Shown here in pieces: positions 9,038 to 18,650 of a stretch of 64,000 nt of DNA (position 1 is the first letter of the stretch; every line of letters begins with the position of its first letter). The stretch comes from Deltaproteobacteria bacterium (lineage in GTDB: Bacteria > Myxococcota_A > Bradymonadia > REDH01). The notes below the pieces were generated by a model. The model did not search any database and was not told the origin of the DNA. It worked only from the letters and a program-made list of their open reading frames with translations. The translations under genes and the position numbers were made by a program. The stretch spans positions 1-64,000 of the forward strand of contig REDH01000016.1 of NCBI GenBank assembly GCA_007693585.1, written 5' to 3'.

Positions 9038-10168
9038 GTGAAGAGCGCCACGCGAATGCATGCACCTCCCCCGGGCGCGCGGCCGACGCGGCGGTGCAGG
9101 GTCCGCCTCCCGCTGGCGTTGCAGGGGGCGCTGCTGGGGGCGTTGCTCGGGATGCCCGTGATGGCCGAGGCGCAGTTGGAGGGAACGCTGCGCGCCGGGG
9201 TGGAGGCGGATGACAACCCGGGGCGGAGCACGGCGGCGCCGGAGGGGTTCAGCGCAGGGGCGCGGGTGTTCGGAGAGCTGCACCTGGCCGAGCGCCCGAC
9301 CCGGAACCTCGATCTCGGCGTCACGGCGCGGGCGGGTGGGCGGTGGAACGCCGGAGCGACCGACGCCACCGGGGGAGCCGCCGAGGCGAGCGGGCGTGCG
9401 CGGCTGTGGCTGACCCGCAGCGTGGACTGGCGGGTGCGCGGGAGCTGGCGTGAGCGAGCGGAGCGGTCCGGGGATCGCGACTATCGGCTGCTGGTCGCGG
9501 CGACGGGGCCGGGGGCCTGGATCGGCGAGCACCACGCGACCCTGGAAGGCGGGGTGGAGCGCTTCGTGTTCCACCCGCAGCCCGACGCGTCGTCCACCGG
9601 AGGAATGGCCCGGGGAGCGCTTCGGCTGCGGCTCGCGGAGTCGCTGGTCCTCCCGGTGGAGGGATCGGTCCGCAGCCGGGCCACGCGGGAGGAGGCGCTC
9701 GGGGGGCCGACGGTCCCGGGGGAGGAGCCGGGGGGGCTGTCGGAGGATGCGTCGGACCGGCGCAGGGACCTGATGCTGGGGGTTGGTGCCGGTCTGGAGT
9801 GGGAGGCGACGCGAGCGTTGCTGGAGGTGCGCTGGCGGTATGCACACAACGACTCGACGGCGTTCGCGCGCTCCTGGCGGCGTCATGTGGTCGACGCGTC
9901 GGTGACGGTCCTTCCCGTCGGGGAGCTGCTCGTGCGCGGCGCCGTGGTGGTGCAGCGCACCCGCTGGCCGGACCGGCGCCTCGACGACGAGACGATCTTC
10001 CTGGAGGACGAGAATCGCAACCAGTTCTCGCTCACCCTGGAGCACCCCGTGGCGGGGCCGGTGTTCGGCGAGGTGCGGGTCACGCACCACCGTCAGGCCT
10101 TCGGTGCGGACGAGGTGGACGACTACCGCCGCACGGTGCTGTACGGTGGTCTCGCGTGGTGGTTCTGA
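9038..10168 (+). CDS. Predicted outer-membrane beta-barrel protein
   Basis: The protein (376 residues from GTG 9038; ATG 9056 is an alternative start) has a basic N-terminus, a signal peptide (LQGALLGALLGMPVMAEAQ) and then alternating amphipathic strands rich in R/W/E/G (LDLGVTARAGGRWNAG, WRVRGSWRERAER). It ends in TVLYGGLAWWF, with the C-terminal Phe typical of barrels assembled by the Bam complex. The GVEADDN start of the mature part also occurs in barrel proteins annotated as surface lipoprotein assembly or TIGR03016-like, but I cannot assign a subfamily. The last ~100 bases are imperfectly duplicated just downstream (10216-10310). Confidence 0.7.
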   Translation: MKSATRMHAPPPGARPTRRCRVRLPLALQGALLGALLGMPVMAEAQLEGTLRAGVEADDNPGRSTAAPEGFSAGARVFGELHLAERPTRNLDLGVTARAGGRWNAGATDATGGAAEASGRARLWLTRSVDWRVRGSWRERAERSGDRDYRLLVAATGPGAWIGEHHATLEGGVERFVFHPQPDASSTGGMARGALRLRLAESLVLPVEGSVRSRATREEALGGPTVPGEEPGGLSEDASDRRRDLMLGVGAGLEWEATRALLEVRWRYAHNDSTAFARSWRRHVVDASVTVLPVGELLVRGAVVVQRTRWPDRRLDDETIFLEDENRNQFSLTLEHPVAGPVFGEVRVTHHRQAFGADEVDDYRRTVLYGGLAWWF

Positions 10169-10332: not shown

Positions 10333-12144
<1,812 letters not shown>

Positions 12145-12297
12145 GGTCGGCGGGGGAGGGCGGCGACCTGTCCGGTCACGGCGGGGGGGAGGCGCCCGGC
12201 AGCCCGCGGGGGGGTGGCGGTCGTGCATCGGGTCGCGCCAGCCGCACCGATGCGCGCGCTCCGCTAGCCGTGCCCCCGTCGGGCGTCAAGCGATTCC

Positions 12298-12316
12298 GCC
12301 GCCCTGCGTCATCCGC
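12298..12316. repeat. Copy A of a 19-bp direct repeat flanking the Rpn-like gene
   Basis: GCCGCCCTGCGTCATCCGC is identical to bases 13768-13786, which span the stop codon of the TPR gene. Similarity continues past the exact block: GCCATCGCAAAGT here against GCCGTTGCGGAGT in the TPR gene, where all differences are transitions. The two copies lie 1,470 bases apart and enclose the Rpn-like gene and the gene-less stretch beside it. Confidence 0.6.
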
Positions 12317-12342
12317 TCGGGGCCATCGCAAAGTCGGCAAGG

Positions 12343-12361
12343 CCGCCTCCCGAGGAGGCGG
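12343..12361 (-). terminator. Hairpin downstream of the Rpn-like gene
   Basis: CCGCCTC (12343-12349) pairs with GAGGCGG (12355-12361) across a 5-base loop, about 70 bases past the stop of the minus-strand gene at 12432 and before TypA. There is no T-run. It could end the Rpn-like transcript. Confidence 0.4.
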
Positions 12362-12431
12362 GCGCGAAGGCCACGATTGCAAGCGCATTCGCGGCGCCTG
12401 CACCGGGACGGGCACGGGTGCCGCTCGCAGC

Positions 12432-13322
12432 CTACCGACCGGAGCTCTCGCGAATCGCTGCTTCCACCGCGTGCTCGAGGGCTTCGAGATCCTCGATGCC
12501 GCGCAGCTGAGCGAGACGGTTCGGTGCGAGACGTGCCGCCAGGGCAAGCAGTGCCGCCCGGCCCTCCTGTCGGCCTTCCTGTCGGCCTTCCTTTCGGCCT
12601 TCCTGTCGGCCTTCCTGCCGACCCTTCTGAAGGCCTTCCTCGAGAAGTTCGCGCCGCAGCCGATGGTAGACACTCTCCTTCTCGGTATCGGTGTGGGGAA
12701 TCTGGTTGTCCATGAGGGCCTCCATGAGTTGCTCCCGGAAGAGGGTAGGAAGGGTGCGGTCGTCGAGCAAGCGTTGCAGGCGCTCACTGGCCTGCTCCGG
12801 AGTCCTGGCTCTTCCCGCCCAGGACCAGAAGGCGTAGCCGTCTTCGGCGCGCAGGGCGCTGGTCTCCAGCAGGACCAACCCACCGTGCTCGCAGTCCGCG
12901 GTGCTCCAGACCCCCGGGGCGTCCATGGGGCCCAGTGTGGGCACGGCGTGTGCTGCATCCTCGCGCAGGCTGTCGGCCACGACGATGACGAGCGGGGGTC
13001 TTGCGGTCTCCCGCAGACGCTGGAAAGCCTCCGCACGACCCGCGCGGGGCTGGATGCGCTTCCAGGCGAGCCAGGTCTGACCCACCAGTGCGCTCGCCAG
13101 CACATGGCGCGCAACAGGGCTGGACTCGTGCTCGAAGATCACGATGCGCTCACTGCACGTGGGCACCAACGCGCCGAACCACAGCGGGGCTTCGTGGAAG
13201 TGGTACACGAGGTCCAGCTTCCGCACCTTGCGCGACATGGAGAGTTCCTGGGACACCTCGCAGTTCCCTGCGGCGAACTGCATGAGTGCGGTGAAGCGAT
13301 CTTCGTGGGGCGTGCTGGACAT
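12432..13322 (-). CDS. Rpn/PD-(D/E)XK-like nuclease-family protein
   Basis: The 296-residue protein has the layout of Rpn/YhgA-like and DUF4351-type proteins. An N-terminal region has an Asp in [10 protein letters not shown] and an acidic strand in [10 protein letters not shown], candidate PD-(D/E)XK positions. A helical middle follows, then a linker of four-residue repeats ([22 protein letters not shown]-type, about 235-255) and a short C-terminal helix. Family members are DNA endonucleases linked to recombination and are often multicopy and mobile. The catalytic Lys is not obvious, so activity is uncertain. The gene is flanked by 19-bp direct repeats (12298-12316 and 13768-13786), one of them spanning the stop of the neighbouring TPR gene. 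Confidence 0.6.
12560..12640. repeat. 12-bp tandem repeat coding for GRQE units
   Basis: Within the Rpn-like gene the unit CGGCCTTCCTGT recurs about five times with single-base changes, each encoding Gly-Arg-Gln/Lys-Glu on the minus strand. Since 12 is a multiple of 3, slippage changes the linker length without breaking the frame. Such linkers are typical of this protein family. Confidence 0.8.
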
Positions 13323-13767
13323 GGGCTTGCGGGTGGGGCTGAGCGCGCGGGTAGTCAGCGAAAGAAGCAGATGAGCACTGCGCAGGCGTTCATGTGGGAC
13401 ATCTTGCTCGGTGAGATGGCCGAGTCAAGGCCTATTGTGACCCGGGGGTCGCAATTGCGGGAGATGGCGGACCGAGAACTGGGCGTGAAGACCGCCGAAA
13501 CCGGCGTCGAGCACGTGAACCACGAGGTGTCCACCGGTCACCAGCCCGACCTCTGCATGGGGCTGTCTACCTGCGCGCCCGCATCCACGACAGGCAATGG
13601 GCCTCGGTTGGTCGCGTTCGTCCCGGTCGTCGCGCCTGCCTGCGAGAGTCGGCATCCAGGGGTCCGATGGTGCTTCGGCAGTGGCGGCTGTGGCATGGCA
13701 GTCCCCCGGAGTCGGACGGCGCTGCACGCGGATCGGGAGGTTGACACGCCGGCGCAGGGCGACGTTG
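13323..13767. other. Gene-less stretch beside the Rpn-like gene
   Basis: About 450 bases between the start of the Rpn-like gene and the end of the TPR gene. Its composition is less GC-rich than the neighbouring genes in places, and no frame shows the G/C third-position bias of the real genes. A plus frame from about 13375 (starting MSTAQAFMWDILL) looks mildly protein-like but runs into the TPR gene without a stop. It may be a decayed remnant carried with the Rpn-like gene. I cannot support a gene here. Confidence 0.4.
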
Positions 13768-13786
13768 GCCGCCCTGCGTCATCCGC
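13768..13786. repeat. Copy B of the 19-bp direct repeat, across the TPR gene stop
   Basis: GCCGCCCTGCGTCATCCGC again, identical to 12298-12316. It contains the TPR gene stop (complement at 13779-13781) and its last codons. See the entry for copy A. Confidence 0.6.
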
Positions 13787-15959
13787 CGTCGCCGTTGCGG
13801 AGTGTGATGCCGAGCCCGTCGCGCAGGTGGTGGTACGCTGCGGACGCTGCCCACGCGAGCAGCGCCTCGCGGCGGTTCGCCAGCCCCGTCCGCGCGTGCG
13901 CGGGCGTGAGCCGCTCGAGCCCGTCCAGCGCCGCCACCACGTCGTCCGCGTACAGCAGCCCCACCCGGTTCGCCTCGTCCGCCACCGACACCAGCCAGCG
14001 GTCGAGCTGGTGTCCCACGCCGCTCTCCACGATGCTCTCCGCCGCCAGCCGCAGCGCCTCGCGCATGGCCGGGTCCAGCTTGCCGTCCAGGTCCGACCGC
14101 AGCCCCTCCGCCTCCGCGGTCTCCTGCACCGGCGCCTCGGGCAGGACCGCCAGCAGCAGTCCGGCGAGCACCGTGTGGAGCTGCGGAGGCATCAGCCGCG
14201 TCGTCAGCGCGAATTCAGGCCGCATGAGATGCAGCGCCCGCGCCAGCACGAACCGCATCTCCCGTGCGTTCACCCCGCGCAGCAGCTCCGGGGACACCAG
14301 CAGCGTGGGCTGCTGGAAGTACGGGTTCACGACCCCCGGAAGACCCTCCCGCACATAGACCGCCGGGGTCTGTTCGAGCCCGAATGGCTCCCGCAGCTGC
14401 TCCAGCGTCCGGATCACCAGCAGCTCGCCATCCTCCAGCCGATCCGATCGCCGCAGCCCGAAGCTGTCCGCGTCGTGGTGCAGCCGATCGGCCATCAGGG
14501 TCCCCGCGATCCGGAACAGCGACTCCAGTGGAGCGAACGCACGCACCGGCCGCAGGTACTCCCGCCGCAGGTCGTCGGGCACCCGCACCGTCACCTGCTC
14601 GGGCCGCCGCGCGCTCAACCGGTTCACCGCCTGCTCGGCGTTGCGTGACGCGCCCCCCCGGGCCACCGCCGCCCTCAGAACGAGATACCCGCGGTCGGTC
14701 TCGCCGCCCTTCAGCAGCGCTGCGCCATACCGCTCCGCCAGATCCGGCCGCTGCGGATGCGCCAGCGTCGCCTTCTCCAGCTCCGCCAGCGGAAGCTCCT
14801 TCTCGCCCACCCGCTCGACCAGGCGCAGGATGGCGTCCTGCACCGCGTCCTCCCGGCCGTGCTGGTACGCCATCCGATACGCATGCAGCGCCTGCGTCGG
14901 CTGATTCAGCTCCGTCTCCAGCAGCATCGCCAGGTTGCGCCACAGCACCGCCAGCAGGCGCTCGTCCGCATCCTCCCGGTTGTGCGTCCGCTGGATCATC
15001 CGCGCATACGCGTTGTGCAGCTCCTCCCACAGCTCCGCGTTGCCGAGCGTGATCGTCTGCCACTCGAACACCTTCAGATCCCCGGGGTGCGCATCCAGAT
15101 GCCGATCCAGCCGCCAGCCGAGCTCCAGCGCATCCCCGAGGTGCTCTCCGTGCAGCCGCACCAGCTCTTCCGCCCGGCTCAGTCGCTCCGCCGCGTCCTC
15201 CAGCGCGCGCGCATGGGTCTCCAGGACATCGGCCAACGCACCCCAGGCCTGCCCCTCGCGCAGCCACGGCTCCACCTCCTCCCGCACCCCTTCGTCCGGC
15301 TGCAGGCGATAGGCCTCCGCCATGAGCAACGCCGCCCGCGCGTGCTCCTCCCGGTCGCGGAGCTCCCGCGCCTGGTCCATCGCCAGCTTCGCCCGCGTCG
15401 CCGGCTCCTGCACAAGCCGAAGCAGCCGCGCGCGAACCTCCGCGGCCCGCACCTCGTTCCCCTGCTCCTCCAGCACCTCCAGCAGCGTCAGCCCCACGCC
15501 GCTGTTCTCCGGCGTGTCCGCGAACGCGCGGTCCAGAAGCACCCGCGTCAGGTCGAGATCCCCCTCCGCCCGCGCCCGCTCCGCCACCCGGAATGCCGTC
15601 AGCGACCGCGACGTCGGCGTCAGCGAGTCCGCATGGTGCATCCACAGCGCCGCAAAGCACGCGTACGCCCCCTCCTCGTCCCCGTCCGCCACACGAAGCT
15701 GCCCCAGCGCCGCCGTCACCTCCCGGTTCAGCGGATCCATCGCCCACGCCTGCTCCAGCCGATCGCGCGCCTCCGCCGACCGCCCGTCCCGCAGCGCCGC
15801 AAGCCCCGCCACCCGGTGCCACCGCGCCCGCGCCACCGGATCGAGCGTCCTCGGCGCCTGCCGCGGGTCCCCGACCTCCTCCCACAACGCCTCGATCCGC
15901 CCCTCGGCGAGCATGTCCTCCCACCGCGAGAGCGTCTCCTCGAATGCCGCTTCGGCCAT
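13779..15959 (-). CDS. Large TPR-repeat protein
   Basis: The 726-residue protein starts at ATG 15959 with GGAGG 5 bases upstream. Residues 1-430 are helical-pair repeats of TPR type (ARWHRVAGLAALRDGRSAEARDRLEQAWAMDPLNREV and later copies). The last ~270 residues form a separate domain with VNPYFQQPTLLVSPELLRGVNAREMRFVLARALHLMRPE, which recalls the helix region of M48-like proteins but lacks an HExxH zinc site. There is no signal peptide, so it is probably cytoplasmic. Similar TPR proteins are common beside Ser/Thr kinases in myxobacteria, and one lies immediately upstream here. The function is unknown. Confidence 0.75.
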   Translation of the reverse strand: MAEAAFEETLSRWEDMLAEGRIEALWEEVGDPRQAPRTLDPVARARWHRVAGLAALRDGRSAEARDRLEQAWAMDPLNREVTAALGQLRVADGDEEGAYACFAALWMHHADSLTPTSRSLTAFRVAERARAEGDLDLTRVLLDRAFADTPENSGVGLTLLEVLEEQGNEVRAAEVRARLLRLVQEPATRAKLAMDQARELRDREEHARAALLMAEAYRLQPDEGVREEVEPWLREGQAWGALADVLETHARALEDAAERLSRAEELVRLHGEHLGDALELGWRLDRHLDAHPGDLKVFEWQTITLGNAELWEELHNAYARMIQRTHNREDADERLLAVLWRNLAMLLETELNQPTQALHAYRMAYQHGREDAVQDAILRLVERVGEKELPLAELEKATLAHPQRPDLAERYGAALLKGGETDRGYLVLRAAVARGGASRNAEQAVNRLSARRPEQVTVRVPDDLRREYLRPVRAFAPLESLFRIAGTLMADRLHHDADSFGLRRSDRLEDGELLVIRTLEQLREPFGLEQTPAVYVREGLPGVVNPYFQQPTLLVSPELLRGVNAREMRFVLARALHLMRPEFALTTRLMPPQLHTVLAGLLLAVLPEAPVQETAEAEGLRSDLDGKLDPAMREALRLAAESIVESGVGHQLDRWLVSVADEANRVGLLYADDVVAALDGLERLTPAHARTGLANRREALLAWAASAAYHHLRDGLGITLRNGDGG

Positions 15960-16078
15960 GCACCGCCTCCAGCTCTGCCCACGTCGTCATCACCGCCGCC
16001 CCATCCCCGACCCGCATTGTGCGGCACCCCCCGGGGAAGCGCAACGCCCCCGCGCGACCGTCCTGGCGGAATCCCCCA

Positions 16079-16226
16079 CGCGGCCGCGGGGACACGTTCC
16101 CGACCAGCAGACGGGTCCGGTTTCGGCCCGTTCCCCCCGCGCGGCCGCGGGGACACGGGCGGGGAGCCGGGGAGCCTGGGAGCGCCGAAGATTCGCCCGA
16201 ATCCCCCACGCGGCCGCGGGGACACG
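16079..16226. repeat. Three copies of a GC-palindromic intergenic repeat
   Basis: CGCGGCCGCGGGGACACG occurs at 16079-16096, 16140-16157 and 16209-16226, each preceded by a run of C (CCCCC plus A or GC). The 10-base core CGCGGCCGCG is self-complementary, and the C-run and GGG on either side add pairs, so each unit can fold. The spacings are 61 and 69 bases. The array fills the gap between the kinase gene and the TPR gene, both on the minus strand. I see no gene in 15960-16250. Confidence 0.75.
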
Positions 16227-16250
16227 GACAAGGCCGTGCTCCCGCGCGCC

Positions 16251-18650
16251 CTACGGCGTGTACACGTGCACCACCCGCTGCAACTCCCCGGGGGCCACCT
16301 CGACCGTCTCCTCCCGCTCCTGATCCCCCGATCGCGTCCGCACCCGCACCCGCCCGGCCTCCACCTCGAACCCCCGCACCGGCGACCGACCCACCGCCCG
16401 GCCGTTCACCCAGACCTCCCCGCCCGGATGCACCACCACGTTCAGCCGCCCGGGAGCGAGGTCCCGCGGCGCAGGATCCTCCACGACCGGCCGCGCCGTG
16501 CGCCCGGAGCGCCGGGTGCTGCGCCGAACCGGCTCCTCCGCGTCCACTCGCGCGGTGCGTGCTCCGGAAGCGACGGGCGGGACCTCCGCTGGCGCCTCCG
16601 CGCGCCTGGCCGGGGACGACGACTCCTCCTCGGCCTCCGCCGCGGGGAGCGCCGTGCCCGCTCGTGCGGCGTCCGGGCCCGTGTCGGCCGGTGGCGCAGC
16701 GACGATTGCGCCGCTCTCGCTGTCCCGGTCGGGCGCCGCACCCTGGCCGGCGCCCTGTCCGTCGCGCGACGCGGGTTCCGGGGGGAGGGCCGCGGCGGCC
16801 CCGTCGTCCCGGGCCGGGGCGGTCGGAGCGCCGTCGGCCGGACCTGCGACGTCCGTACCGCGTTCGCTGAGGCCGTGCGGTTCTCCGGGAGGCGACACCG
16901 CGGAGAGCGCGCTGCCGGTCCCCGTGTGCGCACCGTCGAGGGGGGCTTGCGCGGCCGCGAGAGCGTCCTGTGGCTCGCCAGTGCCCGGGGGGGCCGAGAA
17001 CCACCAGAGGCCAGCGACGGCGAGGGCGGCGATCAGGGCGGCGATCGCGGATGTTGCGCCGATCGACCGTCGGCCCGCGGGTGTTGCTCGTGGGGTGGCT
17101 GCGGCCCGGTCCGCGTGCTCGGCGGCTCTGGGCCGGTCCGGATGCTTCGCGTTGTCAGGGCCGCCCGGCGCGGCCACTTCGGCGGGTTCCGCCGCGCGCT
17201 CCGCGGGGGGAGCGTCTGCCGGGTCGTGGGCATCCGCGGCCGCGGAACGCCGGCCCCCGTGCGGCGGCACTGCTTCGCGGTCGGGGTGCGGGAGGGCGCC
17301 GAGGTCGGGGGAGAAGGGCGTGGTTCGGTCGCCGTGGGTGCTCGCGGTGTCCGGGTGGACCTGCTGCGGAGGGGCGGGTTCGTCGCCGGAGTCATCGTCT
17401 CCGGGCCGCTCGATGGCGATGCCGCCCGCGGTGGCCAGAAGGGTGAGGGGCGGGTCGTCGTCCGGGGAGGGGAGGGCGCTGCCGGGGGAGGGGGGCTCGG
17501 CTGGCGGTGCTGCCGAGCGGTCGGGGGGAGGCGTTGCGGCGTGCGGAGCGGACTCGGCGTCGAGGAGGCTGGTGCGGGAGAAGAGGCTGTCGTGCTCGTC
17601 GGGGTGGGCTTCGCGGACGAGGGCGATCATCGCCTCGAGGCTCAGCAGGGTGCTTCGTCCCTGCGGGACGGCGGGGTCGACGAGGTCTCCGGCTTCGAGG
17701 GCACGGCGGGGGTCGGGGTCGTCGTCGTCGTGGCTCTCGGCGAGGGCGTGGGCCCGGGCGACCTGCTCGCGGAGGAGGCCGAAGGTGGAGGGGGCGTTGC
17801 CGGGGGTGCTGCGGAGGTCGTGGAGGCGCTCGATGATGCCGGGAAGGTCCGGTCGGTCCTCGGGGATCTTCTGGAGGCAGTCACGGATGAGCGTGTCGAA
17901 CTCGGCGGGGAGGTGCTCGCCGCGGGCGGAGGCGAGGGGGGGCATGGGCGCGTAGGCGTGCAGGCGGAGGGTCTCGATGATGTGGCCGCCGCGGAAGGGG
18001 ACGCGTCCGGCGATGAGTTCGAAGAGGATGACGCCGAGGGCGTAGATGTCGCTGGCGGCGGTGGCGCCCTGGCCGCGGGCGACCTCGGGGGAGATGTAGA
18101 GGGGGGTGCCGAGCATCTGCTCGGAGTTGGTGAGGACGGACTCGTCGTCGTCGGCTTCGGCGCTGGCGGCGAGCCCGAAGTCGATGAGCACGGGTTCGAG
18201 TTCGCCGCCGAGCTCGGCGAGGAGGATGTTGCTCGGCTTGAGGTCGCGGTGGATGAGGCCGCCGTCGTGGACGGCGCGGAGTCCTCCTGCGATGCGTGCG
18301 GCGATGTCGACGGCGCTGGCCCAGGAGAGGGGCGCGTTGGCGCGGGACCACTGGCGGAGGGTGGGGCCCTCGAGGAACTCCATGACGAGGTAGAGGAGCC
18401 CGGCTTCGGCGTGGAAGTCGTGGACGGCGACGACGTTGGGGTGGCGGATGCGGCTCAGCAGGCGCGCTTCGCGGCGGAAGCGCTGGATGATGTTGGGCCT
18501 CTCCGCGAGGTGCGGGTGGAGGAGCTTGATGGCGACGGGGCGTCCGATCTGGACCTGGGTTCCGCGGAACACCTCGCCGTATCCGCCGCTGCCGAGGCGG
18601 TGGTCGAGGGTGTAGCGGTCAGCGGGAATCTGGGTGAATTCCGTGCCCAT
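16251..18650 (-). CDS. Transmembrane Ser/Thr protein kinase with PEGA domain
   Basis: The 799-residue protein has a complete N-terminal protein kinase domain: glycine loop LGSGGYGEVFRG, Lys42 in VAIK, catalytic loop HRDLKPSN at 134-141, DFG at 157-159, and the APE-equivalent SPE in YISPEVARG. A Pro/Ala/Asp-rich linker, one membrane helix (TSAIAALIAALAVAGLWWF), a second disordered stretch and a C-terminal PEGA-like domain (LNVVVHPGGEVWVNGRAVGRSPV) follow. This is the standard layout of myxobacterial kinases with a cytoplasmic kinase and an external sensor or binding domain. All catalytic residues are intact. The substrate is unknown; the TPR protein just downstream on the same strand is the nearest candidate. 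Confidence 0.93.
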   Translation of the reverse strand: MGTEFTQIPADRYTLDHRLGSGGYGEVFRGTQVQIGRPVAIKLLHPHLAERPNIIQRFRREARLLSRIRHPNVVAVHDFHAEAGLLYLVMEFLEGPTLRQWSRANAPLSWASAVDIAARIAGGLRAVHDGGLIHRDLKPSNILLAELGGELEPVLIDFGLAASAEADDDESVLTNSEQMLGTPLYISPEVARGQGATAASDIYALGVILFELIAGRVPFRGGHIIETLRLHAYAPMPPLASARGEHLPAEFDTLIRDCLQKIPEDRPDLPGIIERLHDLRSTPGNAPSTFGLLREQVARAHALAESHDDDDPDPRRALEAGDLVDPAVPQGRSTLLSLEAMIALVREAHPDEHDSLFSRTSLLDAESAPHAATPPPDRSAAPPAEPPSPGSALPSPDDDPPLTLLATAGGIAIERPGDDDSGDEPAPPQQVHPDTASTHGDRTTPFSPDLGALPHPDREAVPPHGGRRSAAADAHDPADAPPAERAAEPAEVAAPGGPDNAKHPDRPRAAEHADRAAATPRATPAGRRSIGATSAIAALIAALAVAGLWWFSAPPGTGEPQDALAAAQAPLDGAHTGTGSALSAVSPPGEPHGLSERGTDVAGPADGAPTAPARDDGAAAALPPEPASRDGQGAGQGAAPDRDSESGAIVAAPPADTGPDAARAGTALPAAEAEEESSSPARRAEAPAEVPPVASGARTARVDAEEPVRRSTRRSGRTARPVVEDPAPRDLAPGRLNVVVHPGGEVWVNGRAVGRSPVRGFEVEAGRVRVRTRSGDQEREETVEVAPGELQRVVHVYTP

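Follow-up and report, generated by a model that had tools for sequence, protein, structure and literature searches.

The window, by which we mean the whole 64,000-nt stretch of DNA analysed here, carries on its minus strand a gene for a TPR-repeat protein and the typA/bipA GTPase gene, and between the two lies an Rpn-like gene enclosed by two copies of a 19-nt direct repeat (Table 1). The sequence-only reading of this DNA had described the repeat as a copy of the neighbouring gene's 3' end, and most of that description agrees with our results: a search of the window finds exact copies of GCCGCCCTGCGTCATCCGC on both sides of the segment, the TPR stop codon (13779-13781, minus) falls inside the right copy, and between the copies lie a complete gene of 296 codons and, as described, about 450 bases (445 by position) in which our reading of the open reading frame list finds no gene-like frame. 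Since the right copy spans the TPR stop, the TPR gene stays whole.

Table 1. Features of the TPR-typA interval and its neighbours, in window coordinates
Feature	Position	Strand	Remarks
typA/bipA GTPase gene (listed ORF)	10333-12228	-	start probably ATG at 12144
Left 19-nt direct-repeat copy	12298-12316	+	between insert and typA upstream region
Inferred insert, 1451 nt	12317-13767		TPR-typA adjacent without insert in 12/29 relative loci; composition
Copy of dispersed intergenic repeat, end GGGGCYATCGCAAAGTC	12318-12413		starts one base inside left 19-mer
Rpn-like gene, 296 aa	12432-13322	-	assigned by motif and repeats; profile searches without significant match
Candidate internal start (ATG of M204, GGAGG 5 nt upstream), predicted 93-aa RpnS-like C-terminal protein	12432-12713	-	
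12-nt tandem repeats (family D1) encoding four-residue GRQE-like units	12547-12642	-	
Gene-free stretch	13323-13767		similarity to C57 paralogue only as far as 13430
Right 19-nt direct-repeat copy	13768-13786	+	holds TPR stop codon
TPR-repeat gene, 726 aa, intact	13779-15959	-	

No third copy of the 19-mer occurs in the window with up to three mismatches allowed, and the word is not a common one in the 4.97 Mb genome, where only the pair itself and one word with two mismatches (contig C95) are found. The further similarity beyond the repeat, said to differ by transitions only, could not be recovered: in the aligned flanks the first base on the right differs by a transition, and no run of matching bases follows. 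Close exact repeats of at least 19 nt (within 2 kb) number 0.0 per 64 kb under an order-1 Markov model, 0.017 under an order-5 model and nine in the real window, the nine being mostly coding or near-tandem. When paired 600-nt flanks of window composition were simulated, a shared exact repeat of at least 18 nt appeared in 0 of 4000 cases (17 nt: 0.00025). Four exact repeats of at least 19 nt with a spacing of 400-5000 nt are present in 328 kb of the source genome; by our reading one belongs to a repetitive gene, one to a charged-repeat gene and one to a CCG run, and the 19-mer pair remains. The pair is unlikely to have arisen by chance.

Relatives in which the TPR gene and typA adjoin without the insert, as the sequence-only reading had suggested looking for, do exist. 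Among 29 TPR loci with flanks drawn from the class, 12 have typA directly downstream on the same strand at a distance of -5 to 291 nt (a typA match of 27% identity in G052 is not counted as typA), none of the 12 with an Rpn-like gene, and the distance in the window is about 1.6 kb. All 12 belong to family f5, with typA 58-64% identical to that of the window, and a protein-kinase-like gene stands before the TPR gene, as in the window, in at least two of the five f5 genomes that were looked at closely. Four genomes of the same family as the window genome (G001-G004) have typA with no upstream TPR gene within the stretch examined, and f5 is therefore the nearest informative comparison; a scan of the genome contigs with the TPR protein and then with the Rpn-like pair (A2) found no empty site in a close relative. 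In the f5 loci the 19-mer is matched at 13-15 of its 19 positions at best. The insert has a G+C content of 67.5%, compared with 72.7% for the TPR gene, 71.3% for the window and 67.9% for typA. To judge from gene order and composition, the segment 12317-13767 is a lineage-specific insert relative to f5-level relatives. We also noted a palindromic CACGCGGCCGCGGGGACACG-like word that occurs three times in the stretch separating the TPR gene from the kinase-like gene (16065-16227).

The architecture of the gene resembles that of the Rpn/YhgA-like family (TIGR01784; RpnA-E of E. coli) and of RpnL/RpnS in several ways. The protein contains what we take to be the D...EHxS motif; this motif reading, together with a sporadic multi-copy distribution (homologues in 8 of the 57 genomes of the class, with up to nine per genome), is shared with the Rpn family. 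Charged four-residue repeats near the C-terminus, present in the homologues too, are likewise shared, and a candidate internal start behind a GGAGG of Shine-Dalgarno type resembles the gene-within-gene toxin-antitoxin arrangement of RpnL/RpnS. The GGAGG-ATG at M204 was found in four of the six homologues examined, namely the window gene, the paralogue on contig C57 and two homologues in G056. In the published RpnL/RpnS plan, a C-terminal protein with four-residue repeats is made from the internal start, and the repeats begin 8-20 residues from it (PMC10327210), versus about 25 residues after M204 in the window protein. The predicted product of the M204 start is a candidate RpnS-like protein.

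The Rpn type named in the sequence-only reading fits the four-residue repeats and the candidate internal start, but profile tests against canonical Rpn proteins were negative. TIGR01784 scored 11.1 bits against the window protein (E = 0.25) and 19.0 and 16.2 bits against its best homologues, with a curated cut-off of 52.1 bits, and in G000 nothing matched it at E 1e-10. An hhalign comparison of 13 Rpn-like with 12 canonical Rpn N-termini returned a probability of 0.4% (E = 0.14) and set the EH motif opposite the canonical EMQ, and in the full-length profile comparison the repeat helix alone matches. No Rpn family was matched in Pfam, no convincing match came from a PDB profile search and no Rfam family exceeded its threshold; PADLOC matched weakly, in the repeat region only, and no relative was found among plasmids and phages. 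As to a PD-(D/E)XK fold, the alignment shows conserved residues D37 and E64, and the AlphaFold2 single-sequence model of the protein (pLDDT 48.6) was too poor for a fold search. Because profile membership is lacking, we call the gene Rpn-like, by architecture and motif reading, and regard its product as a putative nuclease-like defence protein.

Two relatives of the gene are present elsewhere in the source genome, a paralogue on contig C57 (71%) and a DNA fragment on contig C48 that corresponds to the 3' end and is 89% identical to the window gene. The C57 paralogue (L030) lies near toxin-antitoxin-like and ImmA/IrrE-type frames, presumably an RHH/GNAT pair and an ImmA/IrrE-type gene, and this region is perhaps a defence island. 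The orphan 3' end on C48 (L031, 3827-4016) is located downstream of what we assume to be an alanine-dehydrogenase-like gene, and may be either a decay product or a stand-alone antitoxin-like piece.

Exact repeats in the flanks of Rpn genes were scored as the longest repeat shared between the 600 nt upstream and the 600 nt downstream of the gene, with a threshold of 19 nt. We assembled 35 Rpn-like loci and tested 32 after dropping three with less than 250 nt of flank; of 71 canonical Rpn matches listed, 51 were entered and 44 had enough flank (an earlier pass over 19 canonical loci, two with repeats, is part of the 44). Five further canonical loci (L311, L319, L320, L324, L325) and nine of the matches (L261, L264, L269, L275, L277, L282-L285) were left out, mostly for their position near a contig end or because the gene is partial. 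Repeats reaching the threshold flank five of the 32 Rpn-like genes and three of the 44 canonical ones, leaving 27 and 41 loci, respectively, below 19 nt, and the same five Rpn-like loci were found in a test of 23 of 29 loci that took in as much as 1 kb of flank. Of the controls by position, 4 of 714 reached 19 nt in the genomes of the canonical loci and 0 of 542 did so in the source genome and genus g2, as did controls centred on open reading frames in 3 of 217, while not even a 15-nt repeat was seen at 19 typA and 26 TPR loci. Fisher's test gives p = 0.0012 for 8 of 76 Rpn loci versus 3 of 217 ORF controls, and p = 0.026 (5/73) once an orthologous duplicate and two arrays of hairpin repeats are removed. 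The enrichment is real but modest. It may not be specific to Rpn genes. Of the three ORF controls with a repeat, one resembles a tandem gene duplication, and in another a DUF4143/AAA_14 gene lies next to a word that occurs three times. No flanking repeat was found at the closest paralogue on C57 or at any of the five rpn genes of E. coli K-12 (rpnA-E). The latter agrees with Zhong et al., who describe rpn genes as lacking target-site duplications and having variable ends and who do not regard Rpn proteins as transposases (PMC10327210), while the repeat-flanked loci contradict their statement on duplications. The expectation that other Rpn-like genes would be flanked by copies of adjacent gene ends is supported by this excess of flanking repeats over controls and by individual cases, and does not extend to the C57 paralogue or to most loci.

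Among the best cases is a canonical rpn gene in G006. Here a 37-nt exact repeat takes in the final 16 nt of a flavin-subunit-like gene, stop codon included, plus 21 nt, and its second copy forms the 3' end of the rpn gene itself, at a distance of 7 nt from the end of a convergent gene; the anatomy of the window locus, a repeat across the neighbour's stop codon, is repeated here. In G110 one copy of a 53-nt exact repeat lies 19 nt after a glnA-like stop and the other lies at the end of a convergent gene, and in G012 the exact repeat is 24 nt long with a spacing of 1155. In both G001 and G003 a 55-60 nt repeat stands on either side of an Rpn-like gene upstream of a gene that we presume to be of AMIN type, and the repeat core is unique to that pair in each genome. 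No full repeat copy is present in G004, where one half sits once beside the AMIN-type gene, without an Rpn-like gene. This hints at an empty site, though not a clean one, as the gene on the left is another one. For the window, G006, G110 and G012 no precise empty site came to light. At the same locus in G005 (L237, contig C157), Rpn-like sequence occupies both contig ends; the repeat follows one gene copy and a half-repeat precedes the next, an array-like arrangement. A tandem pair of Rpn-like genes in G003 (L194, contig C213) has hairpin repeats (CCCAGGG..CCCTGGG) between its members, in direct and inverted orientation. In genus g2 a sharply bounded conserved leader of about 95 nt precedes the start codon of Rpn-like genes, at L191 (9757-9849) and in homologues from G001 and G003-G005, and is shared by 8 of 8 aligned sequences.

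The best reading of the window locus, which we hold with slightly better than even confidence, is an insertion in which target sequence was duplicated over a variable length, possibly through staggered nuclease breaks. A 1451-nt Rpn-like segment would have entered between the TPR gene and typA in this lineage, duplicating 19 bp of the TPR 3' end, and under this proposal the duplication is why the TPR gene still has its stop and final codons while typA retains its upstream region. The rpn-bearing fragment may have been captured where a break was staggered; filling in of the single strands would then leave direct repeats. We infer that the 19-mer pair arose in the insertion event itself, and that the break was made by an Rpn-type nuclease; published work on RpnA describes non-specific double-strand cuts with 3' hydroxyls and promotion of RecA-independent recombination (PMC5350276). 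The repeats around Rpn genes measure 19, 24, 37, 53 and about 55 nt and differ in sequence between loci. This variation, with positions mostly at or near gene ends, makes them look target-derived and fits a staggered break with fill-in better than a transposase whose footprint is fixed. Duplication of variable length agrees with the variable ends reported for rpn genes but contradicts the reported absence of duplications (PMC10327210). The earlier suggestion of an element that enters a gene end and restores the gene survives in part: there is an insert relative to relatives and the TPR 3' end is whole, but the C57 paralogue, most Rpn loci and E. coli K-12, all without a flanking repeat, argue against a defined element with fixed ends.

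Two alternatives separate the repeat from the movement of the gene or attach it to another element. The 19-mer pair may first have arisen as a local duplication of a gene 3' end, with the Rpn-like segment entering later by an unrelated route, and we consider this unlikely. Empty 3'-end duplications, which the sequence-only reading had reported elsewhere in the window, do occur in the source genome, where seven close repeat pairs (about five loci) bracket gene 3' ends and none bracket 5' ends in 328 kb, compared with one and seven, respectively, in 435 kb of other genomes; these counts are rough, being based on a strict gene-call rule that covered 67% of the sample. A mechanism shared with the 19-mer pair is possible. 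However, these duplications have a spacing of only 101-296 nt (roughly 100-300 nt) with no gene inside, unlike the 19-mer pair, two events would be needed at one site, and the repeats in G006, G110 and G012 lie at Rpn genes outside the source genome, the sampled stretches of G006 and G110 showing no excess at 3' ends. Slightly less probable still is that the gene was brought in by a small transposon or a MITE end; this would make the 19-mer the target duplication of 12318-12413, which belongs to the dispersed family with GGGGCYATCGCAAAGTC at its end. The position of this repeat at the left 19-mer speaks for such an origin, as does its recurrence, with 77-96 nt shared by contigs C110 and C174 and the end word forming an inverted pair about 87 nt long in C26. 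Insertion sequences leave target-site duplications, and the insert is like them in being a single gene with a direct repeat at both sides. It differs in its repeats, which range from 19 to about 55 nt across loci, and in lacking inverted ends and a transposase: no matching inverted end is seen by eye at 13767, no terminal inverted repeats at 12317/13767 are among the 25 of 37 pairs listed by a repeat search of 11000-16500, and the insert's one gene has no transposase or integrase match over the cut-off. The relatives on C57 and C48 are without the dispersed repeat.

Integrative elements enter the 3' ends of genes at att sites in tRNA or protein genes and restore the gene. Site-specific integration of this kind, with the integrase supplied in trans and the 19-mer as att core, would explain why the direct repeat overlaps the gene 3' end on one side and leaves the gene intact, as in gene-restoring islands. 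We nevertheless judge it improbable, because the 1.45-kb insert contains no integrase, other Rpn loci have repeats of different sequence and length, and no repeat flanks the C57 paralogue. The least probable of the readings, marginally behind integration, makes the 19-mer pair a coincidence and lets the gene arrive by ordinary illegitimate recombination; the absence of a repeat at most Rpn loci would fit, but the copies sit at both sides of the insert and the simulated flank pairs never reached 18 nt.

Beyond insertion with a target duplication at this locus lies a broader proposal that we consider unlikely, in which rpn genes would be self-spreading single genes without fixed ends: their nuclease would open the target by opposed nicks about 20-55 bp apart, an rpn-bearing fragment would be joined and fill-in would produce a target copy of variable length, often at harmless gene 3' ends. 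If true, this would account for the mobility of rpn genes, for the missing defined ends and for the lack of a single fixed footprint. How rpn genes spread is unsettled, as they are annotated as transposases yet reported without target duplications, and our literature search found no paper joining 'target site duplication' with 'recombination-promoting nuclease'. The exact target-like repeats, two of them across neighbour stop codons, offer concrete sites for testing whether insertion can proceed without a transposase, perhaps with a defence gene's nuclease as its driver.

Several other repeats were seen in the source genome. The dispersed repeat ending in GGGGCYATCGCAAAGTC is found at L116 (108-194, contig C26) and on contigs C110, C174, C32 and C187, the inverted pair in C26 being MITE-like. 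Short direct repeats bracketing gene 3' ends lie at 10070/10216, 40220/40321 and 41341/41461 in the window and at 88736/88884/89031 on contig C24. At L210 (11108-11480, contig C187) a 124-nt unit at the 3' end of a sigma-factor-like gene, with the stop codon inside it, is present in three exact tandem copies, which may be real or an effect of assembly.
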